A stretch of DNA of 64,000 nucleotides, taken from a virus. Each line of letters opens with the position of its first letter. Within the stretch, counting starts at the first letter, position 1. Both the position numbers and the translations under genes were made by a program. Location: the IMG/VR virus record IMGVR_UViG_3300023174_000042, positions 186,001 to 250,000 of that record. One strand, 5' to 3'. A model generated the notes under the pieces. That model did not search any database, was not told where the DNA came from, and worked only from the letters and a program-made list of their open reading frames with translations. Positions 3,954 to 52,972 of the stretch are shown here, one piece after another.

Positions 3954-5732
3954 TTATCTTCTTATTCCCCCAAATAACCAACCATATTTTTGATAATCAT
4001 CTCTGGTTGGTCCATTATTTTGAAATCCCGCTCTTTCTCTCAATACGTTATCGTTAGGTATTGTAGGATTAAACTCTATTTCTTTTTTTACCGAATCGTT
4101 ATTTACAACCGCCCAAGAATCAATCATTGATTTTGCTTGTTCGGTTGCTTTTTCTAATCTTGAAAAAGAAGACTCCCCAACATAAATAGCCATCGACATT
4201 CCCATGATTAAATCATCATGTTGTCCTTTTTGGTGATCAGGTCTTCCATTAACATAAACAAACGTGTTCATTTCACTAAATAAACGAACACTTTTTACTT
4301 TAAATTTGTGTCTTATTGCTTCTTCAAAGGATGCAATAATCTGAACTCTTTTATTATTAAAATTAATTCCCGGTATTTTTTCACTATTACCTTTGTTTGA
4401 TGACCAAACATTAAAAGCATCGACACCATCCACATATAAGTTTCTATATCCAAGTTCTTGCATTTTTCTTACAGTTGTAATACCCATACCTCCTGTAATA
4501 TCGACAACGACAAAACAATTATACATAATACCCCACTTGTATGCAACTTCTGCTAGTGTGTCAGGTGGAATTTTTCCAACATATTCTAAAACTTGTTCTC
4601 TATCATCAAAATCAATAATTTGAATAGTTGAATAATCCTCGCTGTCGCCACGAGATACGTCAACACCCATTATATATTTGTGACCTTCAATCGGATCTTT
4701 CCAAATCCAAAGCGAATTTCCCATAAGTTTTGATACTGGATCTTGTAAAAAATCATTTTTTATGTCCTCAAGTTGTTTGTTGTCAAATACGTTATCTCCC
4801 GAACCCAAGAATTCACAATTTAACTCTTGGTTTATTTTTCGTTTGTCGTATTTAAGTTTTTTAACCATTTTTTCATACCAAGAAGAACATGGTTTATATC
4901 CTTGTTTGAAAAAATGTTTTAATTCTTCATAATCTCTTTCATAGGGATCTATGTGTGAAAGGGAAATATTTTTTGAATCATCATATTCTTCTCGATTCAA
5001 AAGATAATGAACTAAATCTTCTGTTGGAACTAAATATAAATCCTTTGTATATCTTGGATCTCTATACCAAAACATTTCAGAAATTTTAAATTGGTTCATT
5101 CCTTTTAATGCCTGATCGTATATGTCGTGATAAATTGCATCATATCCGTTTGGTGTTGATATTACAATTACTTTACCACCCGTAGATAGGGACGCCATAC
5201 AAGCGGCCCAAAAGTCACCATCGGCCTCAATAAACGCCGCCTCATCAAAAATAAGTATTGTTGGTGTAAACCCACGAAGAGCGTCTTTTGAAGTCGCTAC
5301 CGCCTTAACCTCGGAACCATTATTTAATTTATAATGTCTTTGTGAATTTTTCTCGGCAGAAAATCCAGCACCAACCCAAGATGGCCATTGATCAACAAAT
5401 GTTCTAATTTTATTTGACATCTCCATCGAGGTATCAAGTTTGTTGGCAATTATTAGAATTTTTTCAGGTTGTGTTTTTTTTGCAAATACCAGTCTTTTTG
5501 AAATCCAAGCGGCTGTTACCGTAGATACTCCCGCTTGTCTATATTTTAACGCAATATTTTCTTCGTATTCTTCGTAATCTTTTAATAAAGAAATTTGATC
5601 AGGGAATAGCTCCAAAGGAACGTATTTTGACACGGTATTATCATATGTTTGTAAATATGTTCTAAGAGCATATGGAGTGTCGCTCATACATTTAGCATAT
5701 TCAATTAAAACTTGTTCTTTAGATAAACCCAT
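3954..5732 (-). CDS. 17: Terminase large subunit, T4 gp17-like (packaging ATPase and nuclease)
   Basis: The 592-residue motor packages DNA into the prohead and cuts the concatemer. ATPase domain: a deviant Walker A RQAGVST (65-71), Walker B ILIFDEAAF (159-167) and coupling motif ISTPNG (191-196). RNase H-fold nuclease domain: acidic residues at MGVDVSRG (D358), VVVDITGG (D411) and GQHDDLIMG (D506/D507). Length matches gp17. TATTTAT lies upstream at 5739-5745. Start MGLSKEQVL is the first ATG after that motif. Confidence 0.96.
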   Translation of the reverse strand: MGLSKEQVLIEYAKCMSDTPYALRTYLQTYDNTVSKYVPLELFPDQISLLKDYEEYEENIALKYRQAGVSTVTAAWISKRLVFAKKTQPEKILIIANKLDTSMEMSNKIRTFVDQWPSWVGAGFSAEKNSQRHYKLNNGSEVKAVATSKDALRGFTPTILIFDEAAFIEADGDFWAACMASLSTGGKVIVISTPNGYDAIYHDIYDQALKGMNQFKISEMFWYRDPRYTKDLYLVPTEDLVHYLLNREEYDDSKNISLSHIDPYERDYEELKHFFKQGYKPCSSWYEKMVKKLKYDKRKINQELNCEFLGSGDNVFDNKQLEDIKNDFLQDPVSKLMGNSLWIWKDPIEGHKYIMGVDVSRGDSEDYSTIQIIDFDDREQVLEYVGKIPPDTLAEVAYKWGIMYNCFVVVDITGGMGITTVRKMQELGYRNLYVDGVDAFNVWSSNKGNSEKIPGINFNNKRVQIIASFEEAIRHKFKVKSVRLFSEMNTFVYVNGRPDHQKGQHDDLIMGMSMAIYVGESSFSRLEKATEQAKSMIDSWAVVNNDSVKKEIEFNPTIPNDNVLRERAGFQNNGPTRDDYQKYGWLFGGIRR

Positions 5733-9645: not shown

Positions 9646-10152
9646 TTAATTGTCGTAAAGTGGGGTTGTAGCCTTCCAAGAAAAGTTTTGTTTTGGGAAA
9701 TTTGCAACACAGTATCTTTTAAACATTAATTTTGAATTATCTGTTAACGGCAAATTAGGTCCACCAATAAAACTATTTAATTTACCATAATTTGCGTTCC
9801 CTTTATTTTCAATTTCATCACAGTCAACTACCCATGAACCTCCTTTTTTTCCTGTGACTGTTACTACATAATCTACTAAACTTTGATCAACATCTGAAAT
9901 TTTAGAAAAAACACCACCTCCTGTATTATCAACAACTTGGTTATTGTAGGCTTGAGACAAAAGTTGACCATATGTTGCATTTTTTTTTGTTGCATCATTA
10001 TACGTAGGTATGTCTTTTCCGTTAATTTTTACGGTTTTTCCTTGATCTAAATTTTGTGAAGGAGTATCACCAGTTGGATTTTGTTCAAATAATAAAGGTT
10101 TGACATTACCTAACTTTGATTCTAATAATTGTTTAAATCTATTCACATTCAT
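9646..10152 (-). CDS. Tagged hypothetical protein (LLFEQ tag)
   Basis: The start was placed at ATG 10152 (MNVNRFKQLLESKLGNVKPL). The longer frame runs back through a terminator and the TATTTAT motif. The product is 168 residues. The N-terminal segment ends in PLLFEQ, matching the [I/L]-x-E tag rule of this genome. The remainder is a small globular domain with no recognised motif. Confidence 0.8.
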   Translation of the reverse strand: MNVNRFKQLLESKLGNVKPLLFEQNPTGDTPSQNLDQGKTVKINGKDIPTYNDATKKNATYGQLLSQAYNNQVVDNTGGGVFSKISDVDQSLVDYVVTVTGKKGGSWVVDCDEIENKGNANYGKLNSFIGGPNLPLTDNSKLMFKRYCVANFPKQNFSWKATTPLYDN

Positions 10153-10195
10153 AATTTTTTGTGTTTGATAATAAATATACACATATAAAAAAAAA

Positions 10196-10218
10196 TCCAC
10201 CATAAAGGTGGATTAAAT
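10196..10218 (-). terminator. Intrinsic terminator after the UVR-motif gene
   Basis: The perfect stem AATCCACC / GGTGGATT has a short loop and, read on the minus strand, is followed by a run of T. It terminates transcripts of 10218-10580. Confidence 0.75.
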
Positions 10219-10580
10219 TACTTAAGAGATTTTATTTGGTCTCGATATTGTATCGCTTTTTCAAAGTCTTGGGTTCGAATACATTCGTCCAATTTAAATT
10301 TCAACTTTGATAACTCTTCTTTGTTTTTTTCTAACTTTTTTATCTCATCTCTTAAATTTACCGCTTCTTCAAAATTTTCTTCTCTAACCGCCAAGTTTAA
10401 CTTTTCTTTTAACACATATAATTCATCAGTAGGTTTTTCATTATTAAAATTTCTTGTCATAAAAGACATAGAATACAAACCATCTTTTGATCTATAAGTA
10501 TTTTTAGTCCAGTTTTTATCATCGAAAGATGAAGAAAAAATTTCATTTAATAATTTGTCAAATTCGTTCCAATTAAACAT
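10218..10580 (-). CDS. Small protein with two UVR (UvrB/UvrC-type) motifs
   Basis: A 120-residue protein. Its C-terminal half holds two tandem UVR motifs, LAVREENFEEAVNLRDEIKK (about 67-86) and ECIRTQDFEKAIQYRDQIKS (about 98-117). UVR motifs mediate protein-protein contact in UvrB/UvrC and in McsA/ClpC. It is divergently transcribed from a ClpC-like gene that carries a similar motif (DVIKKQDYEQAAELRDRE), so an adaptor or regulator role for that unfoldase is plausible. That link is inference from motif and neighbourhood. Confidence 0.82.
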   Translation of the reverse strand: MFNWNEFDKLLNEIFSSSFDDKNWTKNTYRSKDGLYSMSFMTRNFNNEKPTDELYVLKEKLNLAVREENFEEAVNLRDEIKKLEKNKEELSKLKFKLDECIRTQDFEKAIQYRDQIKSLK

Positions 10581-17573: not shown

Positions 17574-17594
17574 TATAGAAGTTATTTGACATAT

Positions 17595-18002
17595 GGGCCT
17601 ATATCGGAATTGACGGGCGTTGGTTGAATAAAAGAAGCATGTAGGGACTAAGTTAATCTCTTTAAAAACTGACTTAGAAAACAACTGGCAATGTGCTAAA
17701 CAAAATGGAAACTCTTGGTTTACTAAGAGGTTCTGAAGTTACTGTAGCTTAAGAAGTTTACGGAAACGCGAGCCGGTTCACATACGCTCAGGAACAGAAG
17801 TGATGAAGGTGAAATACAACTGAACCATAAATCGAGTTGTCTATTGGTTTTTAATTTACGATAGTGAAGAACAAATTAAAATTGTTTTTGATCAAGTAAA
17901 AATCAAATATTTTGGGGTATTAGAAAATACCAACCTAAACATGTAGTTGTCTTTTAGACAAAACGAGCCGGACGAGGGAGTCGGAGCCCTCTAGGTCCAC
18001 CA
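17595..18002 (+). ncRNA. ssrA: tmRNA (transfer-messenger RNA)
   Basis: The 408-base gene has paired ends, GGGCCTA (17595-17601) with TAGGTCC (17992-17998), then A and an encoded CCA. The 5' domain shows the tmRNA hallmarks AATTGACGGGCG and GCATGTAGGGACTAAGTTAATC. A tag frame can be read from about 17687 (GGC) to a TAA at 17750, ending GSEVTVA-stop; the resume codon is uncertain. The T-arm stem GAGGG/CCCTC has an unusual 8-base loop. tmRNA rescues stalled ribosomes and tags products for proteolysis. Phage copies are known. An intrinsic terminator follows. Confidence 0.88.
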
Positions 18003-18006
18003 ATTG

Positions 18007-18039
18007 ATCCCACTATTTAATTATGGTGGGATTTTTTTT
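18007..18039 (+). terminator. Intrinsic terminator of tmRNA
   Basis: The perfect 7-bp stem ATCCCAC / GTGGGAT has a 12-base loop and eight T residues on the plus strand. Confidence 0.85.
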
Positions 18040-18060: not shown

Positions 18061-18093
18061 AAAAAAGGGATCAATTGATCCCTGAATTTTTTT
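18061..18093. terminator. Bidirectional terminator closing the long RNA
   Basis: AGGGATCAATTGATCCCT (18066-18083) is a perfect palindrome. On the minus strand it is followed by TTTTTT, ending the long RNA. On the plus strand a T8 run follows a few bases later. CAATTGATCC also occurs at the tmRNA 3' end and inside the long RNA near 18300. Confidence 0.8.
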
Positions 18094-19058
18094 TGCCGGT
18101 TTTTGCTCCATTTCTAAAAAAGAAAAATAAAAACGCTGAGATTACACGTCGTGTTTGAGAACCTTTAGAGTCATTATTGTTTCTACTCTTATCCACTTTC
18201 TTTTGGAAAGTATTTCTCAGTGCTGGTTATTTAGGTGAACCACTCCTTGAGATCTTATCTACTCTCTTACTACTCGATACTCTTCGAGGATGCCTCCCCA
18301 ATTGATCCTTGCGGGACTAGAGATCTTTTGTAAAACTACACTCGGTCTTGGGAACCTAATGTGCCACGGACAACCCGTGACTAAGTAAGCACCTTTCAAC
18401 AAGATCTGACGGACACTTTTCCTTATTTATAATTAATTGTTTAATGATAATTAAGTTTTGTGTCGTGGATTGTCGAAGTAGTGGTCCGCCACCAGAGCCA
18501 ACCCATCTTTTGAACGAGTCGATACTCAACTACTCCGTGAAATGTCCCCATTTCCATACTTCAAGAACTCTTCGAATTATTACCTTGGTGGGTAATTAAT
18601 AAGGACGATGTCAGCACCACCTGTTACTCATCTTGTCTTTCGACGTTAAGATTCCTTTGATATTGGAACTCGCAATTAAAGTGTTGGAGCACTTAGTTTT
18701 GCAAAAATCCCTACGAGTTATTCCTATTGGTGTCCCCACCTCAATTAGACGACCCACATCGCCCAATCATCTAACCACTTTCCCTACAGCGTCGCCCTCG
18801 GTACTAAAGGTTAAACGGTATCCCGCTTGTGTACTCGACCTCAATTATCCGAAGACAACTAAGACGCAAACCATATAACACAAATGGTTCACTTTATCCC
18901 ACTTTCGTGGTTTATTTTAATGGACCATACACGGCCCAATATCTTCATCAATCAAAGAAGAGAATTCCATCTCAATTACTTGCCAAATAATCTGACAAAA
19001 CTTATCATGAACGGATAGTCATTTTTTCAAAGAACGTTATCGGACGTTTCCGATTTGT
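18061..19058 (-). ncRNA. Long structured noncoding RNA, about 1 kb, unknown family
   Basis: Neither strand holds a convincing gene here, and only a spurious 81-codon plus frame exists. The minus strand is purine-rich and bounded by a host-type promoter (-7 at 19063-19070) and an intrinsic terminator. Perfect hairpins include ATCGGA/TCCGAT (19039-19054), CCAC-GAAA-GTGG (18899-18910), GTC-GAAA-GAC (18635-18644), CACGG/CCGTG (18365-18379), CTCGA/TCGAG (18273-18288), ACTTTC/GAAAGT (18195-18211) and long-range CTGAGA/TCTCAG. GNRA loops occur only in the minus sense. An A/T linker near 18420-18465 splits two domains. It recalls ornate phage RNAs such as GOLLD or ROOL in size and tRNA/tmRNA context, but identity is unproven. 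Confidence 0.7.
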
Positions 19059-19062
19059 TTTA

Positions 19063-19093
19063 CAAAGATAGGACATTTATTTTAATTTGTCAA
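19063..19093 (-). promoter_or_regulatory. Second Bacteroidetes-type promoter of the long RNA
   Basis: On the minus strand TTTG-20-TATCTTTG (-7 at 19063-19070, TTG at 19091-19093). It would start transcription just before the first perfect hairpin of the long RNA. Confidence 0.65.
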
Positions 19094-19097
19094 ACTT

Positions 19098-19212
19098 TTC
19101 TTTCACTTTTTTTTTGGTGGTTTCGGATTTTTACCGAAGTTAAGGAAGTTTACGTTTCCTTTTACAACCTCACGTTAGGCTTGTGTTTCATACACTCCCA
19201 CCCCCAAATTGT
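19098..19212 (-). ncRNA. Small multi-branched RNA upstream of the long RNA
   Basis: From the promoter at 19217 the minus strand reads GGGGGTGGGAGTGTATGAAA and onward. It folds into four short hairpins in sequence: GTGT/ACAC, GCCT/AGGT, GGAA/TTCC, and CTTCGG/CCGAA(A). These are closed by GGTGG/CCACC. Its start resembles the leader of the tRNA operon at 24375-24425. It may be the 5' part of the long RNA or a separate small RNA. Confidence 0.5.
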
Positions 19213-19216
19213 TCTA

Positions 19217-19247
19217 CAAATATAAATACTTTATTTTAATTAATCAA
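19217..19247 (-). promoter_or_regulatory. Bacteroidetes-type promoter of the RNA locus (TTG-20-TATATTTG)
   Basis: -7 element TATATTTG (19217-19224) and TTG (19245-19247), exactly 20 bases apart on the minus strand. It overlaps the 3' end of the 19236 gene. Confidence 0.78.
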
Positions 19248-24310: not shown

Positions 24311-24377
24311 GGTTAATGTACTTTACGAGTTTCCCTTTTCTTACAATCACAATATTTTTAAATCAAAGAACTTTTTC

Positions 24378-24554: not shown

Positions 24555-25304
24555 TTAAATAACTTCTCTTGTGTCAATATGTGCCTCATACATTAATCTT
24601 CTTGTTGATAAAGATCTGTAATAATAATAGTCTTCCAAAATAGACTCAAACAAACCGCTCACAAATCCTGATGCCGCATCCCAAGCATTTGAAAGTCCTT
24701 TCCCAACTGCCTGTGCCCCGCTTTGAATAGCGCTTCCTACCGCTTGAGCTCCTTTTTTAATTCCTTGTCCTACAGCTTGAACACCACCTTTAACAAAGTT
24801 GTATGCTTTATTCAACATGTTTCCTGCAAATTGTTTTACGTAAGACCAAAGTTCAGCAATTTTTGAGGCGGCGATAACTGCGGCCCCCCAAGCGGCTTGT
24901 CCTAATTTCCATATGGCATCAAACATAGATTTAAAAAATTGTAATATGTTTGTAGATGCTTTACTGATAAAACTAGAAATTTGATTTGCGGTATATTTAA
25001 TGGTTTGAGCGGCACCAATTACTATACCTTTAACTTGTTTTGCAAGTGCGGTTAAAAAACTCAAAATAACATTTCCAATTGCCTGTGCCACTTTAAAAGT
25101 AGCCTGACCAAGTTTAATTCCAACAATTGCAGGAAGAAAAATGATTGTCAATGAAATTTGACCAATTTTAATTACCGTTTGTTTGACAGCTTTACCAGCC
25201 TGAAAGCCAGCTTTGAATGCCGCGCTTTGGACATTTTGTTCTGAAATAACTTGTTTGATAACTTTTATCAAATCATTTTCAGTTAATTTTATTACCTTTT
25301 TCAT
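24555..25304 (-). CDS. Tagged amphipathic-helix membrane-active protein
   Basis: The 249-residue protein begins MKKVIKLTENDLIKVIKQVI then SEQ (tag with ISE). The body is a series of Ala/Gly-rich hydrophobic and amphipathic helices. It ends in quasi-repeats GVQAVGQGIKKGAQAVGSAI and AQAVGKGLSNAWDAASGF, rich in Lys, Gly and Ala. This resembles pore-forming or DNA-ejection proteins in composition. I do not recognise a family. A TATTTATAAATA motif precedes the ATG. Confidence 0.82.
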   Translation of the reverse strand: MKKVIKLTENDLIKVIKQVISEQNVQSAAFKAGFQAGKAVKQTVIKIGQISLTIIFLPAIVGIKLGQATFKVAQAIGNVILSFLTALAKQVKGIVIGAAQTIKYTANQISSFISKASTNILQFFKSMFDAIWKLGQAAWGAAVIAASKIAELWSYVKQFAGNMLNKAYNFVKGGVQAVGQGIKKGAQAVGSAIQSGAQAVGKGLSNAWDAASGFVSGLFESILEDYYYYRSLSTRRLMYEAHIDTREVI

Positions 25305-25360
25305 AACTTTTTTTATTTATAAATACATCGTAAGTTGAAAAAATTTTGCAAAAGAAAAAA

Positions 25361-27550: not shown

Positions 27551-27588
27551 AACATTTTCAAAGAACACTAACCTACTTGATAAGTATA

Positions 27589-48151: not shown

Positions 48152-48457
48152 TTAATAATCTTCACCCATTTCATCACCCATAGGGTTTCTCAAACTTTCT
48201 GATCCCCAATTTGGATTTCTATGTTTGGAAGCAACTTCCATATTATTCATTTCTAGTTTGATTGCATGTTGTAAAGCCTTCAAATCATCCATAATTTCTT
48301 CAGGAGTTCTTGCCCCCAACATTCCACCTCTTTCTCTTAAAAAAGAATCTACCGCCTTCATAGCACTTGGTAAATTACTCATTTCGCCACTTTCTTTAAT
48401 TACACGTCTAACAATTCTTGTTAAATCTCTTTCGTTTAATCTTACAGTTCTTTTCAT
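48152..48457 (-). CDS. Tagged small protein (MKRTVRLNERDLTRIV tag)
   Basis: The 101-residue protein begins MKRTVRLNERDLTRIVRRVI then KES (IKE site). The body is helical and ends NPMGDEMGEDY. It belongs to the largest tag sub-type. TATTTATAAATA lies upstream in an A/T-rich spacer. Function unknown. Confidence 0.8.
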   Translation of the reverse strand: MKRTVRLNERDLTRIVRRVIKESGEMSNLPSAMKAVDSFLRERGGMLGARTPEEIMDDLKALQHAIKLEMNNMEVASKHRNPNWGSESLRNPMGDEMGEDY

Positions 48458-48635
48458 AACTTTATTTTTTTTTATTATTTATTTATTTATAAATATATCA
48501 TAAAATAAAAAACCCCCACTTTAAGGGAGAGGATTTAATTTTCAATTATCCGATATACGGTGTTTTTTTTAAAAATTAGTAGAAATTTAAAATTGGTCTT
48601 TATATTTATCGATATCTGAAATAATTTGTTTTTTA

Positions 48636-49064
48636 CTAAAAATCTTGATCATCATCATTATACATATGATCTCCCCACTGATAAGGTTTTTCACTTTCAA
48701 CCCACATACGATTTTTACCGTGGGACCCCTTTCTAATTCCTATCTTTATACTTTTAATTCCATTTTTTGAAATACCTTTAACGATTTCAAAAAAAGTTTT
48801 TTTAACATCAGAAAAATCCATAGAAACCTTGTCTCTTTGATACATAATGTCAGCATCAGATTTATTCATATATGCGCCATATAAATCTTTAATAACATTT
48901 TTTAATTGTTGATCATTTGAATTTTCTACTTCATCCATGACATCTTCAATATCATCTTTTGAAGGTTCTCCCAAGAAGGTTCTTCTTAAAAAATTTGTTT
49001 CAGAAATAACACGTTTAACAATACGAGTTAAATCTCTTTCTGTTAGTCTTACAATTCTTTTCAT
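48636..49064 (-). CDS. Tagged hypothetical protein (MKRIVRLTERDLTRIV tag)
   Basis: The start was placed at ATG 49064 (MKRIVRLTERDLTRIVKRVI then SET, an ISE site), since the longer frame would translate the promoter motif. The product is 142 residues. The central acidic helix (KDDIEDVMDEVENSNDQQ) is followed by a basic region (IKIGIRKGSHGKNRMWVES). Function unknown. Confidence 0.8.
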   Translation of the reverse strand: MKRIVRLTERDLTRIVKRVISETNFLRRTFLGEPSKDDIEDVMDEVENSNDQQLKNVIKDLYGAYMNKSDADIMYQRDKVSMDFSDVKKTFFEIVKGISKNGIKSIKIGIRKGSHGKNRMWVESEKPYQWGDHMYNDDDQDF

Positions 49065-49131
49065 AATATTTTTATTTATAAATATATTATAAAACAAAAA
49101 ACCCCACTTTAAGGGAGGGGGGGTTTTTTTA

Positions 49132-49530
49132 TTATCCTTTATTAGCTGTTTTTTTAAATTTATAAGTTTTGTAATCTCCTAAATCTTTTAAAATTTTGTT
49201 GTGGTCTACAAGGTAATCAGGTGGTGATAAAGGGTATGTTTTATTTATTATGGTTTTTCCATTAACAGATACAATCAACTGTATCTTTTTAGAACTTGAG
49301 CTATAGTAGATATAAGCACCATTACTATCATCACCTTTACTTAAACCATTAAATACACCATCAGGACCAAGGACACTACTAGCATTATTTAGTTTTTCAA
49401 ACCCGTATGGGGTAAGTGCTTGAGCAAGATGATACATAGGACTATGTGTTCCACCTTCCATTTCTTCATTAATAACTCGTCTTACAATTCGAGCCAAGTC
49501 TGATTCTGTTAATCTTACAATTCTTTTCAT
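49132..49530 (-). CDS. Tagged hypothetical protein (MKRIVRLTESDLARIV tag, cassette A)
   Basis: Start ATG 49530: MKRIVRLTESDLARIVRRVI then NEE (INE site). The product is 132 residues. After the tag comes a small domain including GFEKLNNASSVLGPDGVFNG. Its promoter, leader and tag-coding DNA are nearly identical to those of 49706-50047, while the bodies differ except for a related GFxxxxxxDG start. Confidence 0.82.
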   Translation of the reverse strand: MKRIVRLTESDLARIVRRVINEEMEGGTHSPMYHLAQALTPYGFEKLNNASSVLGPDGVFNGLSKGDDSNGAYIYYSSSSKKIQLIVSVNGKTIINKTYPLSPPDYLVDHNKILKDLGDYKTYKFKKTANKG

Positions 49531-49596
49531 AATATTTTTATTTATAAATATATCAATCAAAAAAAAAAAACGATTTTTTTATAAAAATTTTTTTTC
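49459..49596. repeat. Promoter-plus-tag cassette, copy A
   Basis: About 138 bases covering the tag codons, ATG, the palindromic TATTTATAAATA motif and a poly-A/poly-T spacer. Nearly identical to 49975-50113. A more diverged relative lies at 52265-52420. Confidence 0.85.
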
Positions 49597-49705: not shown

Positions 49706-50047
49706 TTATATTTTTGATGTTATTGTCGAATAAACTTTATCAACCACTCTATGATCTCCACTCACTGTACCATTTACTCCAGGTTTACCGTATCTGAACA
49801 CTCCTCTTAGATTCGATGGATTTTTAATATCAAAATGATAATATTGTACATAACTAGCATTTGGGTCTTTACCTTTTTGTAGCATTTCGTTTCCATCGGG
49901 ATCTGTAGAATATTTAAACCCTTTAGGTTCATAATGGTTTCTTAATTTTTTCCAAACGCAATCAGCGTCGCATCCCATTTCTTCATTAATAACTCGTCTT
50001 ACAATTCGAGCCAAGTCTGATTCTGTTAATCTTATAATTCTTTTCAT
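49706..50047 (-). CDS. Tagged hypothetical protein (MKRIIRLTESDLARIV tag, cassette B)
   Basis: Start ATG 50047: MKRIIRLTESDLARIVRRVI then NEE. The product is 113 residues. The body includes DCVWKKLRNHYEPKGFKYST. Tag and upstream DNA are copy B of the repeated cassette. No function recognised. Confidence 0.82.
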   Translation of the reverse strand: MKRIIRLTESDLARIVRRVINEEMGCDADCVWKKLRNHYEPKGFKYSTDPDGNEMLQKGKDPNASYVQYYHFDIKNPSNLRGVFRYGKPGVNGTVSGDHRVVDKVYSTITSKI

Positions 50048-50113
50048 AATATTTTTATTTATAAATATATCAGTCAAAAAAAAAAAACGATTTTTTTTAT
50101 AAAAATTTTTTTT
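49975..50113. repeat. Promoter-plus-tag cassette, copy B
   Basis: Direct repeat of 49459-49596 with only a handful of differences across about 138 bases, in both coding and non-coding parts. This indicates recent duplication or gene conversion. Confidence 0.85.
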
Positions 50114-50151
50114 GTATTTGGTGTTTATTTGAAAAGGTGGGGTTAATTTAT

Positions 50152-50610
50152 TTATAAATATCTTTCTCTTAGAGTTTCTCTAACAATTCTTTTAATTAAA
50201 GATTCATCAATCACACTTTCACCTTTTCTTTTTTCATCATAACCATAGACAGTTGTATAAACACTGAATGGTAGATCCTCCAAATACTCAAGATAAAAAT
50301 CATCTCTAAGTTCTTGAATATACCAAATGTCGTTATCATAACCACTATCGGCCCAAACAGGATAATAGTCCTCACCATTTTTTGTTATAGAATCAATAAT
50401 AGTATCTATATCACCAACGGCATCTATTCCTTCACCAATAACACTTCTAACGACAATATGAAATTTAAATTCATAGATGATATCACCAAGAACATAGTTA
50501 TATCCATCATAAACATCTTCAGTATCTGTGAGCGTCATTTCAAACTCCTTGTTTTCAAAGAGTTTCTTTAATAAATTTTTTAGTTTTTTATTTCCAATAT
50601 TTATTTTCAT
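50152..50610 (-). CDS. Hypothetical protein with tag-like helix at the C-terminus
   Basis: A 152-residue protein. An N-terminal basic helix MKINIGNKKLKNLLKKLFEN has no clear cleavage site until LFEN. The C-terminus reads GESVIDESLIKRIVRETLRE then RYL, i.e. an IDE site followed by a helix like the RLTESDLARIVRRVI tags. It overlaps 50607-50939 by 4 bases. Function unknown. Confidence 0.75.
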   Translation of the reverse strand: MKINIGNKKLKNLLKKLFENKEFEMTLTDTEDVYDGYNYVLGDIIYEFKFHIVVRSVIGEGIDAVGDIDTIIDSITKNGEDYYPVWADSGYDNDIWYIQELRDDFYLEYLEDLPFSVYTTVYGYDEKRKGESVIDESLIKRIVRETLRERYL

Positions 50611-51909: not shown

Positions 51910-52341
51910 TTAATTTAGTCCTTTAATTATTTTTTTTACTGTTGAGATAACATTTTGTGGGTTTGAGTAGTCTAATGTAAGGTCGTCTGTATAATATTTA
52001 CCGTCAAAACTAGGAGATTTACCGGTTAATGTTTCGTATGCATCGGCTGTGTCCTCGTCTTGAGTTCCAAACTTTAATCTTTGGTCATCTGAGGATACGC
52101 TAATACCCCATGGTTTTTTTTTCCCTGCATCACTATGGTTTCCCCAATTTAATGATGTGATTTTTTTTCCTTCATACGTAAAAGGAATTATTTTTGGGCT
52201 ATTTCCTGATACATCGGTAAATGATTTTAAACCCGAATAAATAATTGGCCAATTATCAGTAGCACCTTTCATTTCTTCTTTAATAACTCTTTTAACAATT
52301 CTTGCTAAATCCGATTCTGTTAATCTTATAATTCTTTTCAT
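51910..52341 (-). CDS. Tagged hypothetical protein (MKRIIRLTESDLARIV tag, third cassette)
   Basis: The 143-residue protein begins MKRIIRLTESDLARIVKRVI then KEE (IKE site). The body includes SLNWGNHSDAGKKKPWGISV. Upstream DNA is a diverged third copy of the promoter-tag cassette. It is followed by an intrinsic terminator. Confidence 0.82.
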   Translation of the reverse strand: MKRIIRLTESDLARIVKRVIKEEMKGATDNWPIIYSGLKSFTDVSGNSPKIIPFTYEGKKITSLNWGNHSDAGKKKPWGISVSSDDQRLKFGTQDEDTADAYETLTGKSPSFDGKYYTDDLTLDYSNPQNVISTVKKIIKGLN

Positions 52342-52972
52342 AACTTTATTTTTTTTTATTATTTATTTATAAATATATCAATCAAAAAAAAAAAAAAAGA
52401 TTTTTTTATAAAAATTTTTCCATAAATTTTTTTGTGAATACTTTATAGAGGGGATTGAACCCCCCTTTGCCCCTGACAGAAAGTCACTTATGGGGGGGAT
52501 ACGGTAGGGGGGAGGGGGGTATATAATAAGGTAGGGGCCTATGCCAAACAAGAAGGGAGGGGATATGTAGGAAGGGGTTTTTATTAAAAGTTATAAACAA
52601 TAAAGCATAAAAAAATTCCCCATCTATTAGAAAGAGATTAGATTTAAAGATCCCCTCGTTTGAGAATCATATGTAATGTTGTTTTAAAAACCTCATCTTA
52701 TTTTTTACGTATCACTTGGATGACTAAATAACTAATTCCCAACTCCACTGGCGTGTCGGTCTTCGACACCGTGGGGAAAATAAGATTTCTATTAATAAAT
52801 ATATTATTGTTTTAAAAAAGATCAATGGTTTATTTGTTTATGTCAATTTTTTTATCTACCTTTATAATGACACTAAAAATAAAGGTTAAGTCGGGCTTGA
52901 GAGAACAACAAGATGGAGCTTCCATCAGAGGCAGCCTCTCTTATAATGTTTATTGTTAATCCCCAATGTTTT
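52342..52972 (-). other. Gene-free interval with G/C-rich and structured parts
   Basis: No plausible gene on either strand. It contains the cassette-type A/T spacer, then an unusual G-run tract (52490-52575, with several runs of G5-G7 on the plus strand), then the closed RNA domain at 52695-52786. A TATTTAT motif at about 52795 on the minus strand could drive it. Near 52890-52940, nested hairpins GATGGA/TCCATC and AGAGGC/GCCTCT are enclosed by GAGAG/CTCTC. Confidence 0.6.
52695..52786 (-). ncRNA. Structured RNA domain closed by a 10-bp stem
   Basis: ATCTTATTTT (52695-52704) pairs perfectly with AAAATAAGAT (52777-52786). Inside, TTCC.../...GGAA, CCAC/GTGG and GTGTCG/CGACAC stack into one long hairpin (about 52736-52780). 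The minus-strand TATTTAT motif lies 10-15 bases upstream. No coding potential. Confidence 0.5.

Follow-up and report, generated by a model that had tools for sequence, protein, structure and literature searches.

On the minus strand of the window (the whole 64,000-nucleotide stretch analysed here, part of a 272.6 kb virus record), a gene for a small protein is followed by two promoters, a leader, a large structured RNA in two domains and an intrinsic terminator; a tmRNA on the plus strand converges on the RNA (Table 1). The GC content of the RNA locus is 41%, compared with 30% for the window. The terminase is T4-like (25–29% identity), its nearest relatives including those of uncultured huge phages and of Flavobacterium phages, and both promoters fit the Bacteroidota pattern. 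The source is probably a T4-like phage infecting Bacteroidota, with the host phylum read from the promoters and leaders only. At least 15 otherwise different proteins of the window have a common N-terminal leader like MKRIIRLTESDLARIVRRVINE (e.g. 48155–48478, 48639–49178, 49135–49578, 49709–50179, 51913–52362 and, on the minus strand, 24558–25316), which appears to resemble the capsid-targeting sequence of T4-like internal head proteins cut by the prohead protease.

Table 1. Positions of the features in the window, with the basis for each assignment
Feature	Position	Strand	Basis
BoxA-like variant GTTATTTGACATAT, immediately upstream of the tmRNA	17581–17594	+	
Convergent phage tmRNA	17595–18002	+	RF00023, 64.9 bits (cut-off 47)
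Intrinsic terminator, AGGGATCAATTGATCCCT and T-run	18066–18083	-	Terminator scan; folding
GOLLD 3′ domain, including AT-rich linker (~18473–18422)	18133–18537	-	RF02032 match; covarying helices
GOLLD 5′ domain, absent from the Rfam model	~18538–18937	-	Homologous loci; covarying helices
BoxA-like motif GTTCTTTGA in the GOLLD leader	19027–19035	-	Homologous leaders
Perfect hairpin ATCGGAAACGTCCGAT in the leader, immediately upstream of the boxA-like motif	19039–19054	-	
Downstream promoter P2, TTTG-N20-TATCTTTG	19063–19094	-	Sequence; similar sites in homologues
Leader between P1 and P2, tRNA-like cloverleaf with long variable arm	19116–19206	-	Folding, z -2.1; two near-identical homologues
Upstream promoter P1, TTG-N20-TATATTTG	19217–19247	-	Sequence; kept in locus L068
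GOLLD-linked small protein, 58 aa	19239–19412	-	58/58 protein-anchored loci; purifying selection
BoxA-like motif, leader of tRNA cluster	24363–24371	-	
BoxA-like motif, 8 nt before tRNA-Ser	27558–27566	-	

A GOLLD RNA with a covarying 5′ domain

GOLLD is a known giant phage RNA that forms hollow cages and whose expression rises in phage lysis; we know of no job assigned to it. Few structured non-coding RNAs in bacteria or phages are larger, and GOLLD forms one of few natural RNA-only cages. A covariance-model search against Rfam matched the RNA at 18537–18133 (minus strand) to GOLLD (RF02032), covering the model end to end (positions 1–416 of 416); the score was 309.4 bits (cut-off 150), with E = 1.2e-87. 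A record-wide search gave this one GOLLD in the entire record. Every other large RNA family, ROOL included, scored below its Rfam cut-off at the locus.

An earlier note, made from the sequence, had likened the RNA to both GOLLD and ROOL; the likeness to GOLLD holds and that to ROOL does not. The note saw no signature of RNase P, rRNA or OLE, in agreement with the sub-threshold scores of these families. Its suggestion that the RNA may represent a new family fails because of the strong match to RF02032 (E about 1e-87), the very outcome of an Rfam search that the note had named as removing novelty. The full-length match rules out a new RNA family. Superficial likeness of a new large structured phage RNA to GOLLD, an idea that can draw on the 5′ domain lying outside the Rfam model, retains a vanishingly small probability in the face of 309 bits over the full model and of the published GOLLD loop contacts that are kept here (below). 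From sequence comparison it is virtually certain that the RNA is a full-length, two-domain GOLLD. It adds a member to a known family and is in itself an ordinary GOLLD.

More than 130 GOLLD loci were gathered from IMG/VR with DNA patterns, and the 5′ domain was sought in them with a profile of the 400 nt upstream of the Rfam-modelled part. Of the 137 homologous loci examined, 110 have the window-type 5′ domain, among them those of two huge phages (635 and 642 kb). The sample is skewed to the window's GOLLD type, since the 5′ domain was the target of one of the two search patterns. The shared RNA body thus defined spans 18937–18133 (~805 nt). In Acinetobacter phages the GOLLD 3′ domain is joined to a different 5′ part. 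In the RNA bodies of 61 homologues the longest ATG-initiated ORF is 20–117 aa in length (median 51), and no conserved coding frame was found among them, in keeping with the gene-free locus described in the earlier note.

For the analysis of covariation, 61 diverse viral homologues (54–85% identical to the window) were aligned and a consensus fold was computed. The null was provided by 20 alignments preserving the tree and the substitutions per branch, using our own R-scape-like script. The analysis gave 51 column pairs above the null (E < 0.05). The consensus structure accounts for 42 of these (5′ domain, 15; 3′ domain, 27), and at least one significant pair falls in 10 of the 21 helices of the 5′ domain and in 12 of the 17 helices of the 3′ domain. 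The large structured non-coding RNA with many hairpins that the note had proposed is thereby borne out in both domains by covariation beyond the phylogenetic null. Confirmation of the structure comes from this comparative evidence, because one 148 nt segment from the 3′ end is predicted to fold no more stably than its shuffled versions (z 0.10). The homologues supply a covariation-supported 5′ domain that is lacking from Rfam.

The window RNA resembles other GOLLDs in its full 3′-domain match, in its two-domain layout with an AT-rich linker, in its separate and less conserved 5′ domain of ~400 nt with helices of its own, and in its setting in a phage genome near tRNAs. It differs from them in its phage tmRNA neighbour, its boxA-like leader and its linked small protein, all three of which are new to us. 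A tRNA within the linker has been reported for other GOLLDs; a search of the window's linker found none.

One 14.5 kb contig (L215) contains two equal-scoring GOLLD copies in opposite orientation (4080–4483 and 10038–10441), either an inverted duplication or an assembly artefact. The word CAATTGATCC is repeated in the window at 18001–18010 (tmRNA terminator region), 18071–18080 (GOLLD terminator) and 18299–18308 (a stretch of the GOLLD 3′ domain).

Contacts of the published GOLLD cage

The solved GOLLD RNA forms a 14-mer cage in cryo-EM, in which the kissing contact B7 (L20 with J13/15) is made between subunits (PMC12286853). Nine of the significant pairs in our alignment fall outside the consensus structure. 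Among them is 18421–18351, which connects a loop of the 3′ domain with the linker's end and covaries (GC 31, CG 25, AT 3); by its position, rather than by alignment to the solved sequence, this pair is the putative B7 contact (the L20 contact). The symmetric palindromic kissing loop B8 was reported to undergo a GC-to-CG switch (PMC12286853). The window has a CGCAA hairpin loop whose inner GC becomes CG (UCGA type) in a subset of the homologues, and position and pattern, again in place of an alignment to the solved sequence, point to this palindromic loop as B8. The conserved GAAA hairpin at 18646–18634 resembles loop L11a of the solved RNA; both of the GAAA loops picked out in the earlier note exist and both are conserved.

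Since the B7 pair covaries, the B8 loop switches and the GAAA loop is kept, the cage contacts that we examined appear to be preserved, and the inter-subunit contacts of the published 14-mer are very probably conserved in the window RNA. By analogy with the solved homologue, about 14 copies of the RNA would come together as a cage made of RNA only, the AT-rich linker lying in its interior. ROOL is also a large, ornate, cage-forming phage RNA, a likeness that presupposes a cage in the window RNA, but the latter differs in having no Rfam ROOL match.

A leader motif shared by GOLLD, tRNAs, tmRNA and Bacteroidota rRNA

The two Bacteroidota-type promoters and the terminator that the earlier note had placed around the RNA are all present. 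Nearly every homologous RNA has a site of this promoter type upstream. The terminator (18083–18066) was recovered by a scan of both strands over 2 kb that gave six sites of this kind where 1.5 were expected, and its predicted folding energy is -10.6 kcal/mol (z -2.2). The minus-strand leader between P1 and P2 (19206–19116) can be drawn as a cloverleaf, with 2 nt, a D-like arm, an anticodon-like arm, a long variable arm and a 5 bp T-like arm with a 7 nt loop, and its 3′ end is CCACCA; only two close relatives have such a leader, and neither ARAGORN nor Rfam called it as a tRNA.

The convergent tmRNA, as the note had claimed, scores above the Rfam cut-off, and together with tRNAs 3.6–9.3 kb upstream of GOLLD it makes up the tRNA/tmRNA neighbourhood that the note described. 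It resembles other RF00023 tmRNAs in its covariance-model match, its CCACCA 3′ end and the conserved frame of its predicted tag, GNVLNKMETLGLLRGSEVTVA (17687–17752, plus strand), which is kept in homologues through 3-nt indels. It differs in being phage-encoded, in a tag that ends in VA and not the usual AA, and in being overlooked by ARAGORN, which missed it in a run on the window. The predicted tag is unusually long. A tmRNA lies at most 4 kb downstream of GOLLD in 17 of 45 deduplicated loci and is convergent with it in 13. Glu-type tRNA genes bracket GOLLD in huge phages (L002: 2666–2763, 3862–3958 and 4042–4131; L003: 3103–3223); they have an apparent hairpin insert in the D-loop, and ARAGORN misses or miscalls them.

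A boxA antitermination leader binds NusB–NusE and suppresses termination. The role of boxA and the Nus factors in rRNA has been described (PMC4807359, PMC10250234). The 9-mer GTTCTTTGA is present in 51 of 60 homologous GOLLD leaders, after the promoter and ahead of the RNA, at a background of 4.3e-5 per base. It occurs three times in the window: before GOLLD, before the tRNA cluster and before tRNA-Ser. The tmRNA of the window is preceded by a variant of the motif (Table 1), and homologous tmRNAs have GTTCTTTGA or GTTCTTTAACA right after the promoter. In the genome as a whole the short motif is not enriched (8 sites, compared with 10 for the reversed control), so only its position is informative.

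The 16-mer GTTCTTTGACATATTG, a longer form of the motif, had 112 testable hits in Bacteroidota genomes, and 46 of them are followed by a 23S rRNA signature at a distance of 70–307 nt; among random positions, scored by a looser criterion, the corresponding count was 192 of 2187. No 16S rRNA was found downstream of the motif in the Bacteroidota genome hits. A long boxA pattern, tried at the outset, gave no matches, and a longer boxA pattern had no match in the phage's own genome. As in bacterial rRNA leaders, a hairpin and then GTTCTTTGA come soon after the promoter; the difference is that in the window the motif precedes phage non-coding RNAs.

These features suggest that GTTCTTTGA is a boxA acting in antitermination, which we consider probable. 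The motif could instead act in promoter escape as a core element, be a site of processing or serve in the RNA as a site bound by a phage protein, as might be expected of a short element that is always near a promoter. The proximity of the longer form to 23S rRNA, the position of the motif after a hairpin as in rrn leaders, and the presence in tmRNA leaders of GTTCTTTAACA, one step from the E. coli rrn boxA (TGCTCTTTAACA), argue against such roles and make them unlikely. We propose rRNA-type antitermination because the GOLLD, tRNA and tmRNA leaders share the motif with rRNA leaders. GOLLD, tRNAs and tmRNA would then be made by the phage as rRNA is by its host, through a polymerase that Nus factors have modified to resist termination and that produces the long untranslated RNA whole and in quantity. 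That the RNA is a GOLLD, has conserved cage contacts and is transcribed as a host-type stable RNA is, for the three jointly, a combination in which we have high confidence.

A small protein encoded directly upstream of GOLLD

The ORF at the upstream end of the locus is a real gene under purifying selection, as shown by third-position differences of 0.38 compared with 0.19 and 0.16. Its product has one copy in its own genome and belongs to a family of small acidic proteins (43–58 aa) that gave no match in Pfam or PHROG and no relative in 50,697 GenBank phage records. The predicted model (mean pLDDT 83) has the order strand-strand-helix-strand and matched no fold in the PDB.

The family is present in 28 of 54 deduplicated GOLLD loci with enough upstream sequence and missing from the other 26. 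To avoid circularity, IMG/VR was searched with the small protein alone, using profiles from two sub-alignments, which gave 65 loci. GOLLD follows on the same strand, 85–267 nt after the ORF, in 58 of the 58 loci with enough sequence, many of them near-duplicates of one another; the remaining seven contigs end too early downstream. Other neighbour families reach at most 14 of 29 of these loci. Within the searched viral collection, the small-protein family is found only directly upstream of GOLLD.

This tight gene linkage leads us to infer joint action of protein and RNA, and we lean slightly towards a functional link between them. The small acidic protein could serve as cargo, as an assembly or opening factor, or as a regulator of the GOLLD unit. 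It is also quite possible that the protein is a bystander kept by common descent in one phage clade and that GOLLD acts alone: 26 of the 54 GOLLD loci do without it, some other neighbours are shared as well (up to 14 of 29 loci), and the acidic proteins have no recognisable fold. Common descent must then account for a search with the protein alone that gave zero exceptions in 58 loci, for a strand and spacing that never depart from the same strand and 85–267 nt, and for the presence of each other neighbour family in less than half of the protein-anchored loci.

If protein and RNA do act together, the GOLLD cage, its private small protein and rRNA-type antitermination may form one dedicated system in a large clade of Bacteroidota phages, with the protein working inside the cage, on it or in its assembly; we advance this tentatively. 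Such a protein would be the first genetically tied to GOLLD, within the literature searched. The rRNA-type leader and the GOLLD-only protein family make the function of GOLLD open to experiment.

In some relatives other elements occupy the region upstream of GOLLD. A conserved RNA-like element of ~165 nt (GAAACAGTCTAGGTCCGTAGGGCTACTGTTG...; L155: 2898–2735, minus strand; also in L172, L182, L088, L208 and L056) has its own promoter and boxA-like motif; it gave no Rfam match above the cut-off and is a candidate new small RNA. Four loci (L140, L149, L146 and L172) have tandem units of ~91 nt directly upstream of GOLLD, each consisting of a promoter and a short RNA of ~60 nt with a GAGA...TCTC stem.
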